DNA of 49,492 nucleotides, taken from Phycisphaerae bacterium. GTDB taxonomy: Bacteria > Planctomycetota > Phycisphaerae > Phycisphaerales > SM1A02. Each line of letters begins with the position of its first letter. Position 1 is the stretch's first letter. The DNA is taken from contig JABIWU010000040.1 in the NCBI GenBank assembly GCA_018701395.1, positions 1 to 49,492 on the forward strand, written 5' to 3'. The notes under the pieces were generated by a model. It was not told the DNA's origin. It saw nothing but the letters and a program-made list of their open reading frames with translations, and ran no database searches. This document shows positions 30,552-41,992 of the stretch, one piece after another. The position numbers and the translations under genes were made by a program.

Positions 30552-30718
30552 ACGGCCGCATTAACGACCCGCAGTTTCTACTTACTGGCTTGCATCCAAG
30601 AGTGGCAGTGGACAAGCGGCAGCCCTACCAAATAATTGGTCTGTCTTTTGTCTTCTGCCTCTTGAATTGCAGAACCCAGTATTCGCAAGGAAATTGCCAA
30701 ACAAGAGGAGTACTTAAA

Positions 30719-32890
30719 ATGAGTACAAAAATAATTGTCGAACGGGAAATTGGAAATCGCATGATGCGATTTGAAACTGGTGAAGTCGCAAAGCAAGCAA
30801 GTGGTGCTGTTATCGCTTCTTATGCTGACACTGTTGTAATGTGTACTGCGATGCGATCAAACCCACGACCGGGATTAGATTTTTTCCCATTACAATGTGA
30901 TTACCGAGAGCGCACAAGTGCCGCAGGAAAATTTCCGGGTGGCTTTCGTAAACGCGAAGGTGCGCCAAATGAAAAAGAAATTTTGACGATGCGATTGATG
31001 GACCGTCCGATTCGTCCGCTCTTTCCAGACGGATACATCGACGAGTGTCAAATTCAAGCATGGGTGATGAGCCACGACGGCGAAAATGACGCTGATGTAT
31101 TGTCGTGTACTGCTGCTTCTGCAGCACTTTGTTTAACAGACTCACCATTTGAAGGGCCTGTTGCAACAGTCCGCGTGGGTCGTATTGTTACTGATGAGGG
31201 CGAGACATTTGTCTTGAACCCAACGCATACGCAAATGCAATATTCAGATCTTGATCTTGTTCTTTCAGGCCACAGTGATGGCGTGAACATGATTGAAATT
31301 GGCGCAGCGCAAGTAGACGAAGCAAGCGTCATGGGTGCAATCAAATTTGGTTACGAAGAAGGAATCAAGCCGATTTTAGAATTGCAAATTGAGTTGATGG
31401 AAAAAGCTGGAACGACTGAAAAGCGTATTGGCGATCTTGCATTACCTAGCGACGAAGTAATGGCGAAAGTCAAAGAACTCGCCGAAACAAAAATGCTCGA
31501 AGCTCGACGTATTCCAGGAAAAGCAGATCGCAGTGACGCAGTTAACGCTTTACGTACTGAAATGATTGATACTCATTTTACAATTCCAGAAGGTTGCACG
31601 TATAGCGATCATATGGCTGCCGAAAAAACACAACGACAAGCAAAAGAAGCATTCCGTAAACTTGAAAAGAAATGTACTCGCAAATTAATCGTTGATGAAT
31701 CCATTCGTGCTGACGGTCGTTCATTCGACCAAATACGCGACTTGTTGATGGATCCTACTTACTTCCCACGTACACACGGTTCTGCACTATTCCAACGTGG
31801 CGAAACGCAATCACTTGTTACATGTACACTTGGTACAGGTCGAGATGAACAAATCGTTGATGGTTTAATGCCCGAGTATGCGAAGAAGTTTTATCTTCAT
31901 TACAACTTCCCACCATTCTGTGTTGGTGAAGCAGGTCGAATCATGGGCCCAGGTCGCCGAGAAATCGGTCACGGCGCTCTCGCAGAGCGATCGCTTCTTG
32001 GAATTCTTCCAGAAGTAGACGATTTTCCATACACAATTCGCTTGGTCAGTGACATTACTGAATCAAACGGTTCGTCATCCATGGCGAGCGTTTGTGGCGG
32101 TTGCCTCGCACTTATGGACGCTGGCGTACCAATTCAAAATACATGCGCGGGCATTAGCGTTGGTCGTTTCAGTAACGACGAAGGAAAAATAGTTCGTGTA
32201 ATGGACATCATCGGCGAAGAAGATTTCTTTGGCGATATGGACTTCAAAGTTTGTGGTACAAAAACTGGTATCACCGGCGTTCAATGCGACCTTAAAGCAC
32301 GTGGACTTTGGTTCGAAGAACTCGAAACAATTTTCGAGATGGCACGAAAAGGTCGATTCGATATTATTGATCAAATGGAAGCAGTTCTTGATGGACCTCG
32401 TAAAGAACTTTCAAAATATGCTCCACGAATGTTGACGATTACAATTAACCCAGAAAAGATTGGTAAACTTATTGGCCCAGGCGGTAAGACAATCCGGCAA
32501 ATCACTGAAGACACAGGTGCAAATATCGATATTAACGATGACGGCATCGTCTTTATTAGCTCGGTTGATTTAGACTCGGCAAACTCTGCACTCGCTGCTG
32601 TTGAAGCAATTGCTGCTGAAATTAAAGTTGGTAGTGTGTTTGAAGGTAAAGTTGTTTCGACACGCGACTTCGGTGCCTTTATCGAAATTGCTCCCGGAAC
32701 AGATGGCATGTGCCACATTTCAGAACTTGCGGATGGTTTCGTAGATAACGTTGAAAACATTTGCAAAGTTGGTGACAAAATTAAAGTGAAAGTCATCGCA
32801 GTAGATGACACCGGTCGCATCAAACTTTCAGTGAAAGCGTTGCTAAAAGATGTAGCGAAAGAAGCTGAAAAAGAGACCGTGGAAAACTAA
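30719..32890 (+). CDS. pnp: Polyribonucleotide nucleotidyltransferase (PNPase)
   Basis: 723-aa phosphorolytic 3'-5' exoribonuclease of the degradosome. Start ATG 30719 with GAGGAG upstream. Domains: two RNase PH cores (about 10-215 and 315-545), a helical linker, KH (IGKLIGPGGKTIRQITEDTGANIDI near 560-590) and S1 (EGKVVSTRDFGAFIEIAPGTDG near 635-700). Key motifs such as MDRPIRPLFP and NGSSSMASVCGG are present. The 168-base spacer from rpsO could hold an RNase III site like that of E. coli. Confidence 0.97.
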   Translation: MSTKIIVEREIGNRMMRFETGEVAKQASGAVIASYADTVVMCTAMRSNPRPGLDFFPLQCDYRERTSAAGKFPGGFRKREGAPNEKEILTMRLMDRPIRPLFPDGYIDECQIQAWVMSHDGENDADVLSCTAASAALCLTDSPFEGPVATVRVGRIVTDEGETFVLNPTHTQMQYSDLDLVLSGHSDGVNMIEIGAAQVDEASVMGAIKFGYEEGIKPILELQIELMEKAGTTEKRIGDLALPSDEVMAKVKELAETKMLEARRIPGKADRSDAVNALRTEMIDTHFTIPEGCTYSDHMAAEKTQRQAKEAFRKLEKKCTRKLIVDESIRADGRSFDQIRDLLMDPTYFPRTHGSALFQRGETQSLVTCTLGTGRDEQIVDGLMPEYAKKFYLHYNFPPFCVGEAGRIMGPGRREIGHGALAERSLLGILPEVDDFPYTIRLVSDITESNGSSSMASVCGGCLALMDAGVPIQNTCAGISVGRFSNDEGKIVRVMDIIGEEDFFGDMDFKVCGTKTGITGVQCDLKARGLWFEELETIFEMARKGRFDIIDQMEAVLDGPRKELSKYAPRMLTITINPEKIGKLIGPGGKTIRQITEDTGANIDINDDGIVFISSVDLDSANSALAAVEAIAAEIKVGSVFEGKVVSTRDFGAFIEIAPGTDGMCHISELADGFVDNVENICKVGDKIKVKVIAVDDTGRIKLSVKALLKDVAKEAEKETVEN

Positions 32891-32892
32891 GA

Positions 32893-33708
32893 ATGTATTC
32901 TTGGACTTGGCTTATTGCAGGCACCGCCCTTGGGGCGGTGTCTGTTTTGCCATATACAATTTGGCGACATAAGCGGGACGTAAAGCGAACAGAAGAAGCG
33001 CGCTCGCGTGCACAAGCATCTGAGCGAATGGCTGAGATTGGGAACATGACATCTGGTCTTGCCCATGAGATTAAAAATCCACTTTCAACTGTAGGTTTGA
33101 ACGCACAGTTGCTCGCTGAAGACATCGACCATCTTGATGCACCCGAAGAAGAAAAAGTAAAAATTACAAAGCGTCTCGATTCGCTTTCTAGAGAAGTCCA
33201 CCGCTTGAAAGGCATACTTGATGACTTTTTGCAATTCGCGGGTAGGATGAAATTACACTGCGAGGAAATAGATCTTCGACTGGTCCTTAGCGAATTAGAA
33301 GATTTTTACCATCCACAATGTGATAGAGAATCAATTGTAATGCGAATGCAAATGCCAGAGAAACCCGTGATGGCGAACGTTGATGCATCGCTTCTTAAAC
33401 AAGCGGTGTTAAATTTGCTTATTAATGCGACCCACGCGATGCAAGACTCTGAACAAAAAGAATTAATGGTTCGTCTTAAAACAACTGAAAATGAAGCGTG
33501 TATTCACATAATTGACACAGGGAATGGAATAGAAGAAGATCGCATTAGTGAAATTTTTCATCCATATGTCTCGTCCAAGCAGGGTGGGACTGGTCTTGGT
33601 TTGCCAACCGCGTTGCGAATAGCGCAAGAGCACGGTGGGCAACTCGTTCTTAATTCCACTGTTGGTCAAGGTAGCGATTTTACACTGTGTGTACCACTGT
33701 ATACATAA
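32893..33708 (+). CDS. Membrane-anchored sensor histidine kinase
   Basis: 271 aa, small for a kinase. One N-terminal membrane helix (TWLIAGTALGAVSVLPYTIW, 5-24), then HisKA with His58 in SGLAHEIKNPLSTVG, then HATPase_c with N box LNLLINATHAM, G1 DTGNGIEEDRI and G2 GGTGLGLPT. No sensor domain; input may come through the membrane or through partner proteins, as in NtrB-like kinases. It lies 2 bases after pnp. The only response regulator in the window is an ANTAR protein on the other strand (34622), a possible partner. Confidence 0.9.
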   Translation: MYSWTWLIAGTALGAVSVLPYTIWRHKRDVKRTEEARSRAQASERMAEIGNMTSGLAHEIKNPLSTVGLNAQLLAEDIDHLDAPEEEKVKITKRLDSLSREVHRLKGILDDFLQFAGRMKLHCEEIDLRLVLSELEDFYHPQCDRESIVMRMQMPEKPVMANVDASLLKQAVLNLLINATHAMQDSEQKELMVRLKTTENEACIHIIDTGNGIEEDRISEIFHPYVSSKQGGTGLGLPTALRIAQEHGGQLVLNSTVGQGSDFTLCVPLYT

Positions 33709-35347: not shown

Positions 35348-36529
35348 TCAATCCAAAAAATCACCTTCTTTGAGGCGCTGTGGAACGTATTCTTCAGTGA
35401 CGTACGAAATGTCTTTCGTAATCAACGATTCAACTTCCATTTTGAACCCGTTGTTAAGCATTGTCTTAATCTCGCGTTGCCATTCTCGTTTTCCTTCAAA
35501 CCAAGGGTATGCGGCAATTTGTTTTGCACGAGTAATGTCACGGTCGTTCAACTCAATTTTGACTTCGTCAGATAAATCCAAACGTTCATAATCTTTTGAA
35601 CGAATACCCATAAATTTTGCGTCTGGAATTGCCATCCGTTCAGATTCAAATGCTAGGTTAATAGACCCTTGTTTGATAACACTGTAAATATAATGTCCCC
35701 AGGGGTCACAATCGAGCAAGCAATAGACAGGAAGTTTGAGTTCCTTGTGCATGCGGTGCAACATGCGCCGTACGCCACGAGGAGGTTGCCCTGATCCTTC
35801 AGTCAATATACAGTTGTGTGTTTCCCAAAAACGGTCTTCGTTAAATCTGCTCCAAACTGTATCTTTCTCGACATGTAAGATAAAGTCGGCGTCACAGTTT
35901 TTGAATTGCATAACGTTTGGTTCACAGATACTTGGAATTGCGTATCCTCCAGAACCCATCTTCCGACAATTGATTTCGTCGCCATTATCAACCACAGTAA
36001 TATTGCCAACCATGGTTCCGCGTTTTTTTGCAAAAATATGAAGCTCTTCTCGAAGGCCGTCGAGTGCGACTTCTAAATCTTCCAAAATACCATCGGACTC
36101 ACTCTGTTCGTTGAAGGTTTTTTCTTTCGTTCCCGGGATAGAGTGTAATCCCATGTAATACATTCCCCGCAAACTAAGCGTTTTTTCTGCTTGGATTAAC
36201 TCTTTGCATCCTTTCGCTAAAAGGAGGGACTGCATAAATTTTCGAGACTGTCCAAGATTAAATAGACTTCTAGTTTGGGTATTTGAACCCATTTCTAAAA
36301 TCCGTTTTTTCTTGTTGTATTTCATATTTGAAACAGAACGAGTAGGTATTTCGAATGAAGGTTCTTTTTGCCCTAAACTTGATTTAACAATGGATGTTGC
36401 AAGCGCATCAATTTTTTTGGTTGTTATCGCATCACGTTTTTTGTCAACGATACGACTAGTTTTACTAGAAACAGTTTTTACCGGAATCTTTTTGGACGTT
36501 TTCTTTTTTGTTGTTTTCTTTTTAGCCAT
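35348..36529 (-). CDS. DNA topoisomerase VI subunit A (Spo11/Top6A family)
   Basis: 393-aa catalytic subunit of a type IIB topoisomerase. WHD with the catalytic tyrosine in RGMYYMGLHS (Tyr124/125), followed by IPGTKEKTF and EQSESD as in archaeal Top6A. TOPRIM metal residues Glu221 (VEKD) and Asp273, Asp275 (LLDCDPWG). The C-terminal half (YIYSVIKQGSINLAFESER) is strikingly archaeal. The N-terminal 35 residues are a lysine-rich extension. Overlaps the top6B stop by 1 base (TAATG). Confident family call; its origin by transfer from archaea is inference. Confidence 0.95.
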   Translation of the reverse strand: MAKKKTTKKKTSKKIPVKTVSSKTSRIVDKKRDAITTKKIDALATSIVKSSLGQKEPSFEIPTRSVSNMKYNKKKRILEMGSNTQTRSLFNLGQSRKFMQSLLLAKGCKELIQAEKTLSLRGMYYMGLHSIPGTKEKTFNEQSESDGILEDLEVALDGLREELHIFAKKRGTMVGNITVVDNGDEINCRKMGSGGYAIPSICEPNVMQFKNCDADFILHVEKDTVWSRFNEDRFWETHNCILTEGSGQPPRGVRRMLHRMHKELKLPVYCLLDCDPWGHYIYSVIKQGSINLAFESERMAIPDAKFMGIRSKDYERLDLSDEVKIELNDRDITRAKQIAAYPWFEGKREWQREIKTMLNNGFKMEVESLITKDISYVTEEYVPQRLKEGDFLD

Positions 36530-38316
36530 TACTTTGCACCTCGTTTACGTGAGGTTTTTTTCTTTGTGGTTTTACGTTTCTTTTTCTTTGCTGTTTTTCC
36601 AAACAATGTTTCTTCTTGCTCAGGAATATCTTGCATTCGATCAACAATGATTACATCTTCGTCATTTCCAAGCCGTCCTCCGCCATCTAAGATATTACCC
36701 TCGTCGTCAAGCTGCGCATCTGCTTCGTCCGTTCTTCGTTTTGCCTGTTTCATTAACGCTTTATATAATTTCTCTTTGTCTGCTCCGACTAGCGAGTGAC
36801 AACACCTTGAAATCTCGCCAATATATCGCTCGAACACGCTTCTTCGTTCAGATTCTCGCGCCATTCGTTTTCGTCTTCGCAAGTATGTGCCTAGTTTTCG
36901 GCCACACTCTTGAAGAGCAAGTTTCATTTCTTTTCGAATTTCATCATAGTCAGCGATCGCTTCTTTTGATTCACTCGTGAACGGTACCCAAACACTAACC
37001 ATGTGAACCATTACAACAAGAGGTCCTGAAGGTATTGAATTTTTTGGTTGCGTTAACCCGTAATTTTTCCAGGAAGTTTCAGCAACTGCTTTAAATGATG
37101 AGCAACTTGATTGAGAATATAAAAGTGGAACTCTGTTTGCAAAACGCAATACTTTCGCGCTGTCGTCTCTTCCTAGACCGCCACCGTATCCAATTGCAAC
37201 TTCAATCTGAAAAGGGTTACCTCGATACACATTGGGAGGTCTTGTTGATGCCGCAAAAAATTCTGCTTTGACTTCTTTTAATAGACCAGCAAGTAATGCT
37301 TTGGAACCAATTGGCACGAGGCAATCTGTATTTGGAGCAATAATACGTGTCTTTTGAATAGAGTCGTAAAGTCTTTCTGCTTCGGTATGCCCAACAGATT
37401 TAAGCCAAGTTTGCCCCGTCATACCTGCGACTTTGCAAATTTCGCGCGCTTTAGTTGCGCCGATTCTGCAAAAATCTTTGGTCAAAAATCCCCCAAGCTG
37501 CCTCTGATCAGTTCGCTCTATCATTTGAATGAGCGTGCCGAGTTCGATTCCTTTTGGATGCGGTTTGATTTCTTTCGGTTCTTCTGGAAGTTCGTCAATA
37601 ACTCGCGGGTACTCAAGCGTTTCATTTGTAGGAGTGACATACGTTATATGAGCGTGAGGGTTTGCAATTGCTGTTTGCTCTAAATATTCGTCGATGGATT
37701 GTCGACCTTTTTGGTATTTGCCTTCAAGTTCAATGGTCACTTGAGTGCCATGCCCATCTTCGAATAGCCCATCATCTTCTGGATGTTCCAAATCACTAAT
37801 TACAGTCGGTCGGTTTTTTGAAGTATCCATTTTGAGAATGACTTCGTGGGCAGGTTTTTTCTTCTTAGTTTTAGAAATAATGATGAGCGGTTTGCCGGTA
37901 GTCATTAAGCCATACATGCCTGCCGCAGAAATTCCGATCCCTTGTTGCCCGCGTGACATTTTTAATCTATGAAACTTAGAGCCATACAAAAGTTTTCCGA
38001 AAATGTTTTCGATTTGTGAACGAATAATTCCAGGTCCATTGTCTCGGATTGTTAATTTGAAACGCGATTCATTTATTTGTAAAACTCGCACGTAAATATG
38101 TGGAAGGATTCCACCTTCTTCACAAGCATCGAGTGCATTGTCAACAGCTTCTTTAATTGCGGTAAGCATTGCTTTTCGCGGGTTATCAAAACCAAGAAGA
38201 TGACGGTTTTTTGCGAAGAATTCACTAACGGAAATATCTCGTTGTCCTGCGGCCATCGTTTCGGCACTTGCATTTGAACGAGTTTTGTTCTTTTTAGGTA
38301 TTTTGGTTTTTGGCAT
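36529..38316 (-). CDS. DNA topoisomerase VI subunit B (Top6B family)
   Basis: 595-aa ATPase subunit. GHKL ATP site: Glu56 and Asn60 in IKEAVDNALDACEEGG, RDNGPGI (91-97) and GQQGIGISAAGMYG (123-136). A helix-2-turn-helix-like and transducer region follow (STRPPNVYRGNPFQIEV near 340-360, GGGLGRDDSAKVLRFANRVPLLY). The C-terminus (about 570-595) is lysine-rich, like the N-terminus of subunit A. Located directly before Top6A in the same order as archaeal operons. Forms a heterotetramer that cleaves both strands with two-base 5' overhangs and passes a second duplex. Confidence 0.95.
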   Translation of the reverse strand: MPKTKIPKKNKTRSNASAETMAAGQRDISVSEFFAKNRHLLGFDNPRKAMLTAIKEAVDNALDACEEGGILPHIYVRVLQINESRFKLTIRDNGPGIIRSQIENIFGKLLYGSKFHRLKMSRGQQGIGISAAGMYGLMTTGKPLIIISKTKKKKPAHEVILKMDTSKNRPTVISDLEHPEDDGLFEDGHGTQVTIELEGKYQKGRQSIDEYLEQTAIANPHAHITYVTPTNETLEYPRVIDELPEEPKEIKPHPKGIELGTLIQMIERTDQRQLGGFLTKDFCRIGATKAREICKVAGMTGQTWLKSVGHTEAERLYDSIQKTRIIAPNTDCLVPIGSKALLAGLLKEVKAEFFAASTRPPNVYRGNPFQIEVAIGYGGGLGRDDSAKVLRFANRVPLLYSQSSCSSFKAVAETSWKNYGLTQPKNSIPSGPLVVMVHMVSVWVPFTSESKEAIADYDEIRKEMKLALQECGRKLGTYLRRRKRMARESERRSVFERYIGEISRCCHSLVGADKEKLYKALMKQAKRRTDEADAQLDDEGNILDGGGRLGNDEDVIIVDRMQDIPEQEETLFGKTAKKKKRKTTKKKTSRKRGAK

Positions 38317-38413: not shown

Positions 38414-38442
38414 TTGAATGGGGGGCGAAAAATCGCCATATT
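38414..38442 (+). promoter_or_regulatory. Possible ndk promoter
   Basis: TTGAAT at 38414-38419 and CATATT at 38437-38442, 17 bases apart, each 4 of 6 to consensus. The spacer contains a GGCGA/TCGCC inverted repeat, a possible operator. The predicted start is about 45 bases upstream of the ndk ATG. Confidence 0.45.
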
Positions 38443-38495
38443 TGGTATCCTTGTCAATCTTACGCACACTTAATGATAAAGAAGGACTACTACCA

Positions 38496-38972
38496 ATGGG
38501 CATGGAACAAACATTAATTATCTTAAAACCAGACGCAGTTCAACGCGGCATCATGGGAAAAATTATTTCTAGATTTGAAGATAAGGGCCTCAAAGTAGTA
38601 GGCGCTAAATTCATGCAAATATCGCAAGAACTTGCAGCTACGCATTACGCTGATCACAAAGAAAGGCCATTTTACGCTGGTTTGGTGAGTTTTATGACTA
38701 GCTCACCAGTTCTTGTTCTAGCACTTGAAGGTGTTGGAGCAATTGCCATTTGCCGTTTGATGATGGGAGCAACCTTCGGTTCGCAAGCTGCATCAGGCAC
38801 TATTCGTGGCGATTTTGGTGTTTCGAATAGCTTTAATTTGATTCATGGTTCAGATAGCCCAGAAGCAGCGGCAAAAGAACTAGGTCTCTTTTTCAGTGAC
38901 TCAGAAGTGCTTGCATGGAATCGAGCCAATGAGAGCTGGGTGTATGATCTTTCTGGTGACGAGCCAGAATAA
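38496..38972 (+). CDS. ndk: Nucleoside diphosphate kinase
   Basis: 158-aa enzyme transferring the gamma phosphate among NTPs and NDPs. Start ATG 38496 with AAGGA upstream; ATG 38502 also possible. Recognised by EQTLIILKPDAVQRGIMGKI, and the catalytic His117 in NSFNLIHGSDSPEAAAKEL. Length is slightly above the usual 140-150 owing to a short C-terminal tail (YDLSGDEPE). Confidence 0.97.
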   Translation: MGMEQTLIILKPDAVQRGIMGKIISRFEDKGLKVVGAKFMQISQELAATHYADHKERPFYAGLVSFMTSSPVLVLALEGVGAIAICRLMMGATFGSQAASGTIRGDFGVSNSFNLIHGSDSPEAAAKELGLFFSDSEVLAWNRANESWVYDLSGDEPE

Positions 38973-39140: not shown

Positions 39141-40118
39141 ATGCCAAAAGCAAAAAGGCAATCTAATCGAGTCATGCGTTGCGTCGACTCCACAAATCAA
39201 CGGCATCGACGTCGACGTCGATCAGCTCTTGAAAAAGACCAAATCAACCGAGCTCTAGCAGAACCAGTGATTGTCGTTTCATCTCCTATATTTAATAAAC
39301 GAAATGCCGAGAAATTAGTTTTCGACATTCCAACGAATGTTCCTCGCTTACCTGTTTCGTGGTATTGCCCAGCGATTGACCGGGCAGACCCGCCGAAGCG
39401 CAATGCTGTTCGTCTATTGAGCCGCGAAGAAGAAGCGATTCTGTTTAGGCAGTACAACTATGCACGAATGAAGTGGAGCAGTCTTCAAGATTGCATTAGC
39501 AAGACAAATTCTCCTCAAGATGCCGACCTCGACGAACTTGTTCGATGGTATGACATTTCAATCGATCGTCGAGATCACATAGTCGAGTGTAATTTAGCTT
39601 TGGTGCTTGCGATGGCAAAACGAAGTTGGGCAACTGGCGAGTATGCCGATTTAGTCGCAGAGGGCAATGTAGCATTACTTCGGTCCGTTGATCGATTTAA
39701 TTGCGAACTTGGTTTTAAGTTTTCAACGTATGCATGCAGAGCATTGACAACAGCGTTTAATCGCTTTGGAAAGAAACAGTTGAAGCACAAAGACAATGTG
39801 CCTTTTGAATTCAATCCAGACCGCGAGCCAGTCCATGCAACGGATAATGAAGAGGCTTACGTTAGCCCAGAGCATGTACATGCGATTCGCGAAGCAGTCA
39901 GAAGCGACAATGTACAACTGACAGAGATCGAAAAAGACGTATTGCGGTATCGATTTGGGTTGTTTGCAGGGCAGAATCCACCAAAATTAACGCTAGAAAA
40001 ATCTGGAAAATTGCTGGGTATCTCTAAAGAACGTGTCAGGCAGGTGCAACTTCGTGCACTTCACAAAATTCGAGAAGTCCTCGAACACCGTCTACCCCTT
40101 GATTTACTCGTTGGTTAA
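39141..40118 (+). CDS. Sigma-70 family RNA polymerase sigma factor
   Basis: 325-aa sigma factor. N-terminal basic tail (about 1-45), a region 1.2-like segment, then region 2 (about 150-215: ECNLALVLAMAKRSW, DLVAEGNVALLRSVDRF, FSTYACRALTTAFNRFGKKQ) and region 4 (about 260-315: LTEIEKDVLRYRFG, LTLEKSGKLLGISKERVRQVQLRALHKIREVL). Little sequence lies between 2 and 4, so region 3 is reduced. Looks like a group 3-type factor, more divergent than RpoD and lacking the long N-terminal region 1.1. Which promoters it uses is unknown. Confidence 0.9.
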   Translation: MPKAKRQSNRVMRCVDSTNQRHRRRRRSALEKDQINRALAEPVIVVSSPIFNKRNAEKLVFDIPTNVPRLPVSWYCPAIDRADPPKRNAVRLLSREEEAILFRQYNYARMKWSSLQDCISKTNSPQDADLDELVRWYDISIDRRDHIVECNLALVLAMAKRSWATGEYADLVAEGNVALLRSVDRFNCELGFKFSTYACRALTTAFNRFGKKQLKHKDNVPFEFNPDREPVHATDNEEAYVSPEHVHAIREAVRSDNVQLTEIEKDVLRYRFGLFAGQNPPKLTLEKSGKLLGISKERVRQVQLRALHKIREVLEHRLPLDLLVG

Positions 40119-40194: not shown

Positions 40195-40204
40195 AAACAG
40201 TGTG

Positions 40205-41992
40205 ATGCAAGAAGCAACCGACAAATCAATTGCGCTGCCAGTGATTCAAAGGAAAAAACACAACCGCAAGCGTTGGCTAGTTCTCATTGCAGTGCAAGTT
40301 TTAATTTTTGCGCACATTGCTCTCTGGCTTCTTGGCGAAAAGCTTGGTTGGTTTGGCGGAAAAACACTCACGCCAATTGAGCCATCTGAAGGGATGGAAT
40401 TTGTAAAAACAGGCGTGATTAACGCTGGCGCAATTTTCTTTGCCGTTGCGTTGCTATCAACATTTTTATTCGGTCGTTGGTTTTGTGGTTGGGGTTGTCA
40501 TATTGTTTTGTTGCAAGATGCTTGCCTATGGATATTACGAAAAATGCACATTCGACCAAAACCGTTTCGCGCACGTTGGCTTATGTGGTTTCCATTTGGT
40601 CTTGCTATTTATATGTTTATCTGGCCACTGTTTTATAGAATTGCCCTTGCGCCTTGGTTGCAACCAGAACTGCGTTGGCCAGAAATTACAGCGCACCTTT
40701 TAACTGAAGATTTTTGGAGTTCATTCCCACCGCTCCTCGTTGCAATTCCCTACTTACTCATTTGCGGCTTTGCAACTGTGTATGTTCTTGGAGCAAAGGG
40801 TTTTTGCACGTATGGCTGTCCGTACGGAGGTTTTTTTAAGCCCCTTGATGCAGTTTCTCCTATGCGAGTTCGGGTAAATGATAATTGCCAACAATGCGGA
40901 AAATGCACTGCAGTGTGTACTTCGAATGTACGTGTTCATGAAGAAGTGCATCTTTACAAAATGGTAGTTGATAGCGGGTGCATGAAGATTATGGATTGCA
41001 TTGATGTATGCCCAAACGATGCGCTTTCAATTGGATTTGGAAAAATTCCAAAAGTCAAGGAAAAAGCATTACGAAAATACGACTTGACTTTAAAGAGTGA
41101 AATCGGCGTGACTCTCTTTTTCCTCTTCGGATTTTTCTCGTACCGAGGGATGTATGCGGTTGTTCCAATGCTAATGGCAGTTGGCATGTCACTCGTCGCT
41201 ACTTGGTTAGTCTGGAAGGGCATTAAAATCCTTACGACTCCAAATGTAAGTTTTCATAAAACGCAACTTCGTTTTCACGGAAAACTAAAGCCGGCTGGTC
41301 GGTTCTTTTTATTGGTGGCGTTCTCTACATTATTGTTTACCGTTCAAAGCGCTGCAATTCTTTCGTGCAATATTCTAGGCGACATGGCTGCGCTAAATAA
41401 CGAGAAAGATTCAGCGATAATGTATTACAAACTTTCAGGACCAATGCATGATGGTGGTTTTGGTTTTACGAGTAACCCAAATATCGATTTGGCGATGGCG
41501 AGAATGCATGAATCTCAAAATGAGTTTAGCGAGGCAGAGCGCTTACTTTGGAGGGTTGATGCAAGAGTCGGATCAGATGAAAATGTGACGATGTTATTAG
41601 GTCAAATGATGCAGTATCACCAACAAGAACTGTATATCAAATCTTTTTATGAAGATAGATTACGCGAAAACAAACACTGGGAACAAGTTTGGGAAGACTA
41701 TGTTGGCTGGTTAAAGCGAGATGGCTTTTATGACTACGCGATTGAAACATCCATGGAATCCGTTCGAGAAAACCCAGATGCAATTCGACTAAATATTCAA
41801 CTCGTATTATTAGAAACAGAGTACGGCAATGTCGAAAATGCAATTGCTCTTGCAACGGCTATGACTGACGTATTTCAGAATGATCCTAGCCCGTGGAGAT
41901 TACTTGCTCGGGCTTTAGATAAGTCTGGCGATTATATTGGCGCCATGAAAGCACAAAGCAAGGCCGCTGAATTACAAAGGGATGCTAATTAA
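40205..41992 (+). CDS. Membrane polyferredoxin (NapH/CcoG-like) fused to a TPR domain
   Basis: 595-aa protein from ATG 40205. Five to six membrane helices in the first half with cysteine motifs GRWFCGWGCH (about 90-99) and FCTYGCPYG (about 200-208), as in NapH/CcoG-type proteins, then two 4Fe-4S clusters: CQQCGKCTAVCTSNV (about 230) and CMKIMDCIDVCPND (about 260). Further membrane helices follow (about 300-400), and the last 180 residues are TPR-like repeats. The cluster protein would move electrons from the quinone pool or to a periplasmic acceptor; the TPR tail would dock a partner. No obvious redox enzyme lies nearby. Confidence 0.85.
   Translation: MQEATDKSIALPVIQRKKHNRKRWLVLIAVQVLIFAHIALWLLGEKLGWFGGKTLTPIEPSEGMEFVKTGVINAGAIFFAVALLSTFLFGRWFCGWGCHIVLLQDACLWILRKMHIRPKPFRARWLMWFPFGLAIYMFIWPLFYRIALAPWLQPELRWPEITAHLLTEDFWSSFPPLLVAIPYLLICGFATVYVLGAKGFCTYGCPYGGFFKPLDAVSPMRVRVNDNCQQCGKCTAVCTSNVRVHEEVHLYKMVVDSGCMKIMDCIDVCPNDALSIGFGKIPKVKEKALRKYDLTLKSEIGVTLFFLFGFFSYRGMYAVVPMLMAVGMSLVATWLVWKGIKILTTPNVSFHKTQLRFHGKLKPAGRFFLLVAFSTLLFTVQSAAILSCNILGDMAALNNEKDSAIMYYKLSGPMHDGGFGFTSNPNIDLAMARMHESQNEFSEAERLLWRVDARVGSDENVTMLLGQMMQYHQQELYIKSFYEDRLRENKHWEQVWEDYVGWLKRDGFYDYAIETSMESVRENPDAIRLNIQLVLLETEYGNVENAIALATAMTDVFQNDPSPWRLLARALDKSGDYIGAMKAQSKAAELQRDAN

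Follow-up and report, generated by a model that had tools for sequence, protein, structure and literature searches.

A topoisomerase VI operon of apparently mosaic archaeal ancestry and a likely stand-in for topoisomerase IV in a Phycisphaerae bacterium

Topoisomerase VI (Topo VI) has been described in archaea, for instance in Methanosarcina mazei (2q2e) and Saccharolobus shibatae (2zbk), and its presence in bacteria has already been published, for 17 families (PMC11302465). All these families have a gyrase, and topoisomerase IV (Topo IV) is lacking outside Pseudomonadota and Terrabacteria; in the sections of that work drawn upon here, two bacterial clusters are distinguished for each of the subunits A and B, the placement of the Bdellovibrio B subunit is treated as anomalous, the Discussion does not settle what Topo VI does in bacteria, and no exchange of single subunits is proposed (PMC11302465). 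For archaea, the available parts of another study describe trees of A and B that broadly track taxonomy, based on 35 sequences (PMC9348778). Searches of the open-access literature brought up no title or displayed abstract describing single-subunit Top6 exchange. This report deals with a Topo VI operon, top6BA, carried by a 49,492-nucleotide stretch of DNA from a Phycisphaerae bacterium (hereafter the window). Presumably 5 of the 17 bacterial families are, like this host, planctomycete. The operon shares with the archaeal enzymes the order of domains, the catalytic residues and the presence of two subunits, and its genome shares with other planctomycetes (Pirellulales, Sedimentisphaera, Anaerohalosphaera), as far as they are covered in the same sections, the presence of gyrase and the apparent absence of Topo IV (PMC11302465).

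Among 294 sampled Planctomycetota genomes, Top6B was found in 136 and Top6A in 133; almost one in two of these genomes thus carries Topo VI, and the window operon encodes a typical representative of an already known enzyme. An earlier note, made from the letters of this DNA, had called Topo VI patchy in bacteria: an archaeal-type enzyme does lie on a bacterial contig, but it is not rare in this phylum and had been reported before (PMC11302465, in the parts consulted). What goes beyond the published bacterial Topo VI, and seems worth testing, is the apparent mosaic ancestry of the pair and, within a single order, a trade-off against a second GyrA/ParC-type gene. The explanation favoured here, to which a probability of about 0.68 is given as a whole, is that of a working Topo VI of DPANN origin that likely stands in for Topo IV and whose subunits form a mosaic pair; the intact genes, the catalytic residues, the gene copy numbers and the discordant similarity of A and B are observed, and the activity, the role and the replacement of Top6A are what we infer. 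According to this explanation, top6BA would encode a type IIB topoisomerase, by family knowledge an A2B2 assembly that leaves 2-nt overhangs, in which Tyr125 of Top6A opens a temporary double-strand break for another duplex to pass, with strand passage powered by ATP binding and hydrolysis in Top6B. The enzyme would unlink sister chromosomes, a task that falls to Topo IV in the majority of bacteria, gyrase being the only other type II enzyme found. Top6B would derive from a lineage common to the sampled planctomycetes and to archaea of the Nanoarchaeota side (the phylum of L165, titled Woesearchaeota; L and G numbers denote loci and genomes). Top6A would derive from a lineage common to a few genomes of that side and some of the Aenigmatarchaeota side (the phylum of L181, titled Aenigmatarchaeota). 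This Top6A lineage differs from that paired with related Top6B in many other planctomycetes, and the mosaic would have arisen by Top6A replacement.

Both genes are intact on the minus strand at 35348-38316, as the earlier note had claimed for a complete operon. The first, top6B (36529..38316, 595 amino acids), comprises a GHKL ATPase, an H2TH region and a transducer (Pfam Topo-VIb_trans, 36847..37335), and the second, top6A (35348..36529, 393 amino acids), a winged-helix cleavage domain and a Toprim domain; they overlap in a TAATG, in which the last base of the top6B TAA is the first A of the top6A ATG. These assignments rest on open reading frames, profiles, PDB matches and alignments. Top6A exceeds the Pfam cut-offs of TOP6A-Spo11_Toprim (201.8 bits), TP6A_N (55.2) and Topo_VI_alpha (34.5), and Top6B those of Topo-VIb_trans (201.2 bits), HATPase_c_3 (41.1) and HATPase_c (37.8). 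The two subunits also pass the NCBIfam equivalog cut-offs (NF003333, 539 vs 465; NF003218, 678 vs 274; TIGR01052, 527 vs 381), and their best PDB matches are 2zbk_A for Top6A (E 3e-75) and 2q2e_B for Top6B (E 7e-149). Profiles and alignment together place in Top6A the tyrosine, the glutamate and the DxD expected beside the two domains, and in Top6B the GHKL motifs and a transducer with its lysine. The H2TH region is recognised by alignment only, which runs free of gaps to M. mazei Top6B between GHKL and transducer, where we take this region to lie.

The catalytic residues that the earlier note saw in both subunits were borne out by alignments of 32 type-1, 38 type-2, 82 archaeal and 5 reference rows for A and of 32, 38, 83 and 3 rows for B (types 1 and 2 being the two kinds of planctomycete Top6A defined below). 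R121, Y125, E221, D273 and D275 of Top6A and E56, N60, D92, G96, G123, G126, G128 and K451 of Top6B are invariant; the only variable residues among those checked are Y124 of Top6A, replaced by F in 13/32 type-1 and 9/82 archaeal rows, and G94 of Top6B, replaced by A in 11/83 archaeal rows. Tyr125, the second Y of the YY pair and the presumed catalytic tyrosine, is encoded at 36155..36157, the Toprim Glu221 at 35867..35869 and the Toprim Asp273-Cys-Asp275 at 35705..35713; the N-box of the GHKL ATPase, Glu56..Asn60 of Top6B, lies at 38137..38151 and the transducer Lys451 at 36964..36966 (all on the minus strand). The catalytic roles of these motif residues, Tyr125 included, are assumed from general knowledge of the family, and so is the contact of Lys451 with ATP.

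The planctomycete Top6A proteins fall into two types. Searched with the window Top6A, planctomycete loci score either 404-635 bits (type 1, 33 genomes plus the window) or 157-211 bits (type 2, 41 of the 75 typed genomes), with nothing in between and extra Top6A-like genes lower (100 bits in G171, 65 bits in G141). These 75 genomes were chosen, one or few per family, from those with Top6A and Top6B; in three genomes with Top6B, no Top6A was found in the fetched loci. Complete planctomycete Top6B proteins form a continuous series from 548 to 804 bits against the window (partial rows lower), and are 50-61% identical to it in 19/20 compared loci (L051, in two pieces, 48% and 55%). The two types of A are about 34% identical to each other, and type-2 Top6A is 31-35% identical to the window A in three compared loci with A beside B. 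In the Toprim region, over the columns occupied by the window, type 1 reads D[NC]DPWG.YIYS..[KR]QGSI and type 2 D[CG]DPY[GA]..IYR[TS].KVGSG. The window A is nearer to that of S. shibatae (256 bits) than to those of M. mazei (169) and M. jannaschii (160), whereas the one type-2 A tested resembles that of M. jannaschii (362 bits; M. mazei 222, S. shibatae 163). For B, M. mazei is nearest both to the window (500 bits, vs 305 for S. shibatae) and to the tested type-2 genome. Some Topo VI planctomycetes carry a second Top6A/Toprim-like gene, namely L133 (G171), L143 (G141), G076:C97 and G016:C70; those of G171, G141 and G076 have diverged far (94-120 bits to PF21180). In the Top6B of G076, G110, G141, G121, G205 and G167, the transducer profile is split near position 53-60, an insertion in the transducer.

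In DPANN archaea, Top6B was found in 143/148 Nanoarchaeota-side genomes and Top6A in 109/115 Aenigmatarchaeota-side genomes. Species genomes scanned with a pattern for type-1-like A, in which D[GA]DP replaced D[NC]DP, gave 90 stretches, most of the 80 listed being titled Diapherotrites, Aenigmatarchaeota or other DPANN; the pattern was built on type-1 features, with which A of S. shibatae-like or type-2 kind could not come up. For the trees, the Nanoarchaeota-side loci were the 30 top scorers among the 143 genomes plus 40 more chosen by hand from the remaining list. An early pair of trees used planctomycete A above 300 and B above 450 amino acids and archaeal A above 300 and B of 441-749 amino acids; a later FastTree analysis used B of 441-699 and A above 300 amino acids and left out nine loci of the L207 phylum (partial or duplicate). 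The large B tree did not include L331, whose A is truncated, L283, whose locus lacks an A, or the distant outgroups S. shibatae, Diapherotrites, L207 and L241. In the large tree, the 69 rows labelled Nanoarchaeota side (68 of the phylum plus L177) comprise 46 with type-2 A and 23 with type-1-like A. Type-1-like archaeal Top6A also occurs in bins labelled otherwise, L150 and L198 (titled Chloroflexota) and L201 (titled Thaumarchaeota); L198 falls among Diapherotrites in both trees of the early pair, and the three are probably mis-binned contigs, or else recent transfers. Three DPANN loci have Top6B open frames of 1031, 1612 and 1143 amino acids (L157:3519-6611, L175:1354-6189 and L205:2487-5915), with large insertions inside the conserved protein that are possibly inteins.

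Phylogeny of both subunits, which the earlier note had proposed as a check, points to archaeal ancestry, but to different archaeal relatives for A and B. In a careful A tree of 106 rows, from which two thirds of the Nanoarchaeota-side type-2 A rows were left out, planctomycete type 1 (100/94; bootstrap/Shimodaira-Hasegawa-like approximate likelihood ratio test) is sister to L308 and L181 of the Aenigmatarchaeota side and L165 of the Nanoarchaeota side (99/76), followed by the Nanoarchaeota-side L355 (100/99) and L330 (99/95). The other 20 Nanoarchaeota-side type-1-like A, L177 apart, form a separate clade that also takes in two rows of a third phylum (100/100). The type-2 A of planctomycetes and of the Nanoarchaeota side group together (100/98), with M. 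jannaschii as their sister (100/99). Since an earlier FastTree had placed L165 and L181, weakly supported, among type-1 A, transfer of A from planctomycetes into these archaea was considered, but the careful A tree speaks rather against it. In the careful B tree (118 rows, same support measures; the incomplete L308 B is absent), all 39 planctomycete B rows fall into a single clade (87/92), and the 19 type-1 partners into one of their own (100/98). The window B belongs to a Nanoarchaeota-side plus planctomycete clade of 105 rows (100/96), which excludes the B of L165, L355, L330, L177, M. mazei and the Aenigmatarchaeota side; within it, the order of type 1, type 2 and the nearest archaeal rows depends on weak branches (30-60% bootstrap). 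Twenty of the 105 rows carry a third A lineage, and 12 of these (an 11-row clade at 100/99 plus L354) lie among type-2-partnered rows.

Type-1 A is on average 57.4% identical to L165+L181, 56.5% to L355, 33.8% to Nanoarchaeota-side type 2 and 34.3% to planctomycete type 2; the corresponding means for B are 49.3, 47.5, 53.6 and 55.1%. In eight-row subsets, Nanoarchaeota-side type-2 B exceeds L165+L181 by 3.9 points (95% column bootstrap, 1.5 to 5.9) and L355 by 5.8 points (3.0 to 8.5), and the B of those Nanoarchaeota-side rows whose A is type-1-like comes a little closer again, by 1.6 points (0.3 to 2.9). The closest archaeal sequences found are of the Nanoarchaeota side for the window B and L165, L181, L308 and L355 for the window A, and no sampled archaeon combines both. 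When the A lineages are mapped as labels on the B tree, 7 changes are needed (the minimum possible being 2), 4 of them within the 105-row clade, and no label forms one clade in any of 200 bootstrap B trees. Top6A lineages appear to have been exchanged several times under Top6B in DPANN archaea and planctomycetes, a conclusion that is well supported. As to a possible route, A and B lie at least 0.48 Mb apart in three single-contig genomes (G127, G287 and G167), so that A need not travel with B.

Approximately unbiased (AU) tests were applied to groups named after earlier trees had been seen, with some rows not counted (L265 and L268 for the joint clade of type-1 and type-2 A; L267 and L281 for the clade of type-2-partnered B; 22 type-1-like Nanoarchaeota-side rows for the latter in a larger set). 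One clade of type-1 and type-2 planctomycete A is rejected (log-likelihood difference 394, AU p 9e-52), and so is one clade of type-1 B with L165+L181 (219, p 6e-9). Other results weigh against a mosaic pair. Type-1 B as one clade with L355+L330+L177 (difference 48, AU p 0.14), with five Nanoarchaeota-side rows bearing type-1-like A (41, p 0.16) or with five Aenigmatarchaeota-side rows (49, p 0.067) is not rejected, and with L165 alone AU p is 0.032. Moreover, a single clade that unites every type-2-partnered B and leaves type 1 outside fits equally well (1.9, p 0.47), and in the larger set this arrangement lies 33 log-likelihood units above the quick free tree (p 0.76). The careful B tree reaches -60011.4 and the quick one -60046.2, and with these roughly 35 units regained the two B arrangements are about equal; an exchange inside Planctomycetota is therefore not shown. 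An older reading based on few archaea, in which type-1 B nested in type-2 B made such an exchange certain, was weakened by the DPANN rows and the AU tests. Altogether, the window pair looks mosaic on identity and tree support, and only in part on the AU tests.

Two histories may account for this pattern. Tentatively, and at a little under even odds, a Nanoarchaeota-type Topo VI (type-2 A with B) would have entered Planctomycetota, and in an ancestor of the window group A alone would have been replaced from another DPANN lineage while B was kept; the operon would then be a hybrid of two archaeal sources made in a bacterium, and one case of Top6A as an exchangeable module under a conserved Top6B. 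Alternatively, the type-1 and type-2 pairs could each have arrived whole from different DPANN donors, any exchange of Top6A being earlier and inside archaea. This second history, plausible if on the doubtful side, agrees with the equal fit of type-1 B outside type-2-partnered B, with the groupings with the L355 set or with Nanoarchaeota-side type-1-like-A rows that the tests did not reject, and with the exchange visible inside the Nanoarchaeota side alone, where the third A lineage occurs. It sits less well with the other evidence, since the nearest relatives of type-1 A are L355, L165, L181 and L308, but the L355 B, at its 47.5%, is less like type-1 B than that of M. mazei (48.6%); the B of L355, L165 and L181 falls outside the 100/96 clade, the 39 planctomycete B rows hold together, and a donor with A and B both closest to type 1 was not found among the sampled archaea. 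If replacement of Top6A under the same Top6B lineage did take place, the coupling between ATPase and cleavage subunit must tolerate very divergent partners (the ~34% identical A types). Such an exchange would bear on the pairing of Spo11 with other B-like subunits and would offer natural hybrids for mechanistic work.

Regarding the role of the enzyme, the window genome contains one Top6A, one GyrA/ParC-type (PF00521) gene with two GyrA-box-like motifs, and one GyrB/ParE-type (PF00204) gene; it thus has a gyrase, and no further type IIA enzyme was found. The search for gyrase and Topo IV that the earlier note had suggested thus returned one gyrase, and a second GyrA/ParC-type gene was not found in this assembly, which is 97.7% complete and in 102 contigs, where a gap is possible. 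In the window's own order, at least two PF00521 genes occur in 0/10 Topo VI carriers and in 4/5 non-carriers; in the four non-carrier genomes of family f4, as in G274 of another family, one PF00521 copy has GyrA boxes and the other does not. Over the Planctomycetota, 17/132 carriers and 84/155 non-carriers have at least two such genes (Fisher p 8e-14, uncorrected for shared ancestry; the 7 genomes lacking any PF00521 match are not counted). Among the typed carriers, the figure is 0/34 for type 1 (one genome with no match) and 6/41 for type 2 (two with no match). Where Topo IV is lacking, some other enzyme has to do the unlinking. Judged from these gene copy numbers, Topo VI most likely replaces Topo IV in the window cell.

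It is important to note that several observations speak against such a replacement. G172, a 98% complete genome of family f2 in the same order, matches neither Top6A nor Top6B and has a single PF00521 gene, being an apparent gyrase-only relative or a case of assembly gap; just one PF00521 gene is present in 71/155 non-carriers; the six type-2 carriers cited above keep two or more; and a ParC gene could be missing from the window assembly, given its many contigs. Another reading is that Topo VI serves chiefly to relax positive supercoils as an auxiliary enzyme, or as a specialised break-maker, and not as a decatenase replacing Topo IV. This is unlikely. The S. shibatae enzyme, to whose A subunit the window A is nearer than to that of M. 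mazei, does relax DNA and decatenates poorly, as reported in passages of PMC8185306, and some planctomycetes combine Topo VI with a second GyrA/ParC-type gene; but none of the carriers in the own order nor any of the 34 type-1 genomes has that second gene, the Topo VI of M. mazei is a preferential decatenase according to the portions consulted of two studies (PMC8837201; PMC9348778), and unlinking would still have to be provided for. The presumed replacement of Topo IV by Topo VI lends itself to direct comparison: families of one order differ, sampled carriers having one GyrA/ParC gene and sampled non-carriers usually two, so that genetic and biochemical work can be done side by side.

Other enzymes have the TP6A/Toprim core in common with Top6A, namely Topo VIII, Mini-A and Spo11/TopoVIBL. 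Unlike Topo VIII, a single protein of mobile elements, the window system consists of two separate full-length genes at a chromosomal locus conserved in G251, the other sampled genome of the window's family; together with the lack of any Top6B match in the phages searched, this rules out a Topo VIII. In contrast to Spo11/TopoVIB-like pairs, in which GHKL is degenerate and H2TH is missing, the window B has an intact GHKL site and an H2TH region that can be aligned, and this identity was likewise discarded. An origin from a mobile element was also rejected: besides the phage result, the plasmid records with a Top6A match are only 3, all haloarchaeal, and among viral contigs 101 stretches fit the pattern of the single-protein query and none codes for a relative.

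The ends of both subunits are rich in basic residues, the Top6A N-terminal extension (36434..36529, minus strand) in lysine and the Top6B C-terminal tail (36532..36597, minus strand) in lysine and arginine. The tail appears to stand in the place of the immunoglobulin-like C-terminal domain of M. mazei B. The earlier note had considered such extensions unusual, which does not hold. The median number of lysines plus arginines in the first 45 residues of A, taking the first Met in the open frame as the start, is 9 in type 1 (n=34), 12 in type 2 (n=42) and 10 on the Nanoarchaeota side (n=29); in the last 60 residues of B it is 11.5 (n=34), 14 (n=41) and 11 (n=30), respectively, the window tail having 16. 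Lysine-rich ends are common in Planctomycetota Topo VI and were rejected as a special feature.

Finally, the window is contig C8 of the host assembly (1.94 Mb), and the genes around top6BA are bacterial by Pfam and NCBIfam profiles: pnp, a histidine kinase, a lipid kinase, an ANTAR response regulator, ndk and a sigma-70 family gene, and further genes for a ferredoxin-type membrane protein, rsmB, metK and serA. The divergent neighbour ndk (38418..38972, plus strand) is kept beside top6BA in G251, and pnp with the histidine kinase gene (30590..33708, plus strand) also lies near it there; the order pnp-histidine kinase-top6A-top6B-ndk-sigma is identical in both genomes, and neither a lipid kinase nor an ANTAR gene turned up at the G251 locus. 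The guanine-cytosine content is 40% for top6A, 42% for top6B and 43.5% for the window; codon-use distance is 0.081 for top6B, within the range of ten neighbours (0.068-0.119), and 0.124 for top6A, just above it. The Top6A of two records with planctomycete titles, L184 and L211, score 561 and 564 bits against the window, and L184 lies close to G251 in the tree. That the contig, or the operon within the bin, is archaeal contamination, as the extended resemblance to archaeal proteins and the many contigs might suggest, is highly improbable and was rejected on the bacterial genes on either side, the synteny with G251, the codon use, and the type-1 Top6A clade shared with 33 other planctomycete genomes, some of 1-2 contigs (G034, G095, G167). 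The earlier note's argument from the flanking genes is upheld by this synteny. Two of these neighbours deserve mention on their own: the sigma-70 family protein (39141-40118, plus strand) has recognisable regions 2 and 4, its best NCBIfam match being MzaA, far under the cut-off, and the ferredoxin-type membrane protein (40202-41992, plus strand) is a NapH-like protein of 596 amino acids with a C-terminal TPR part.

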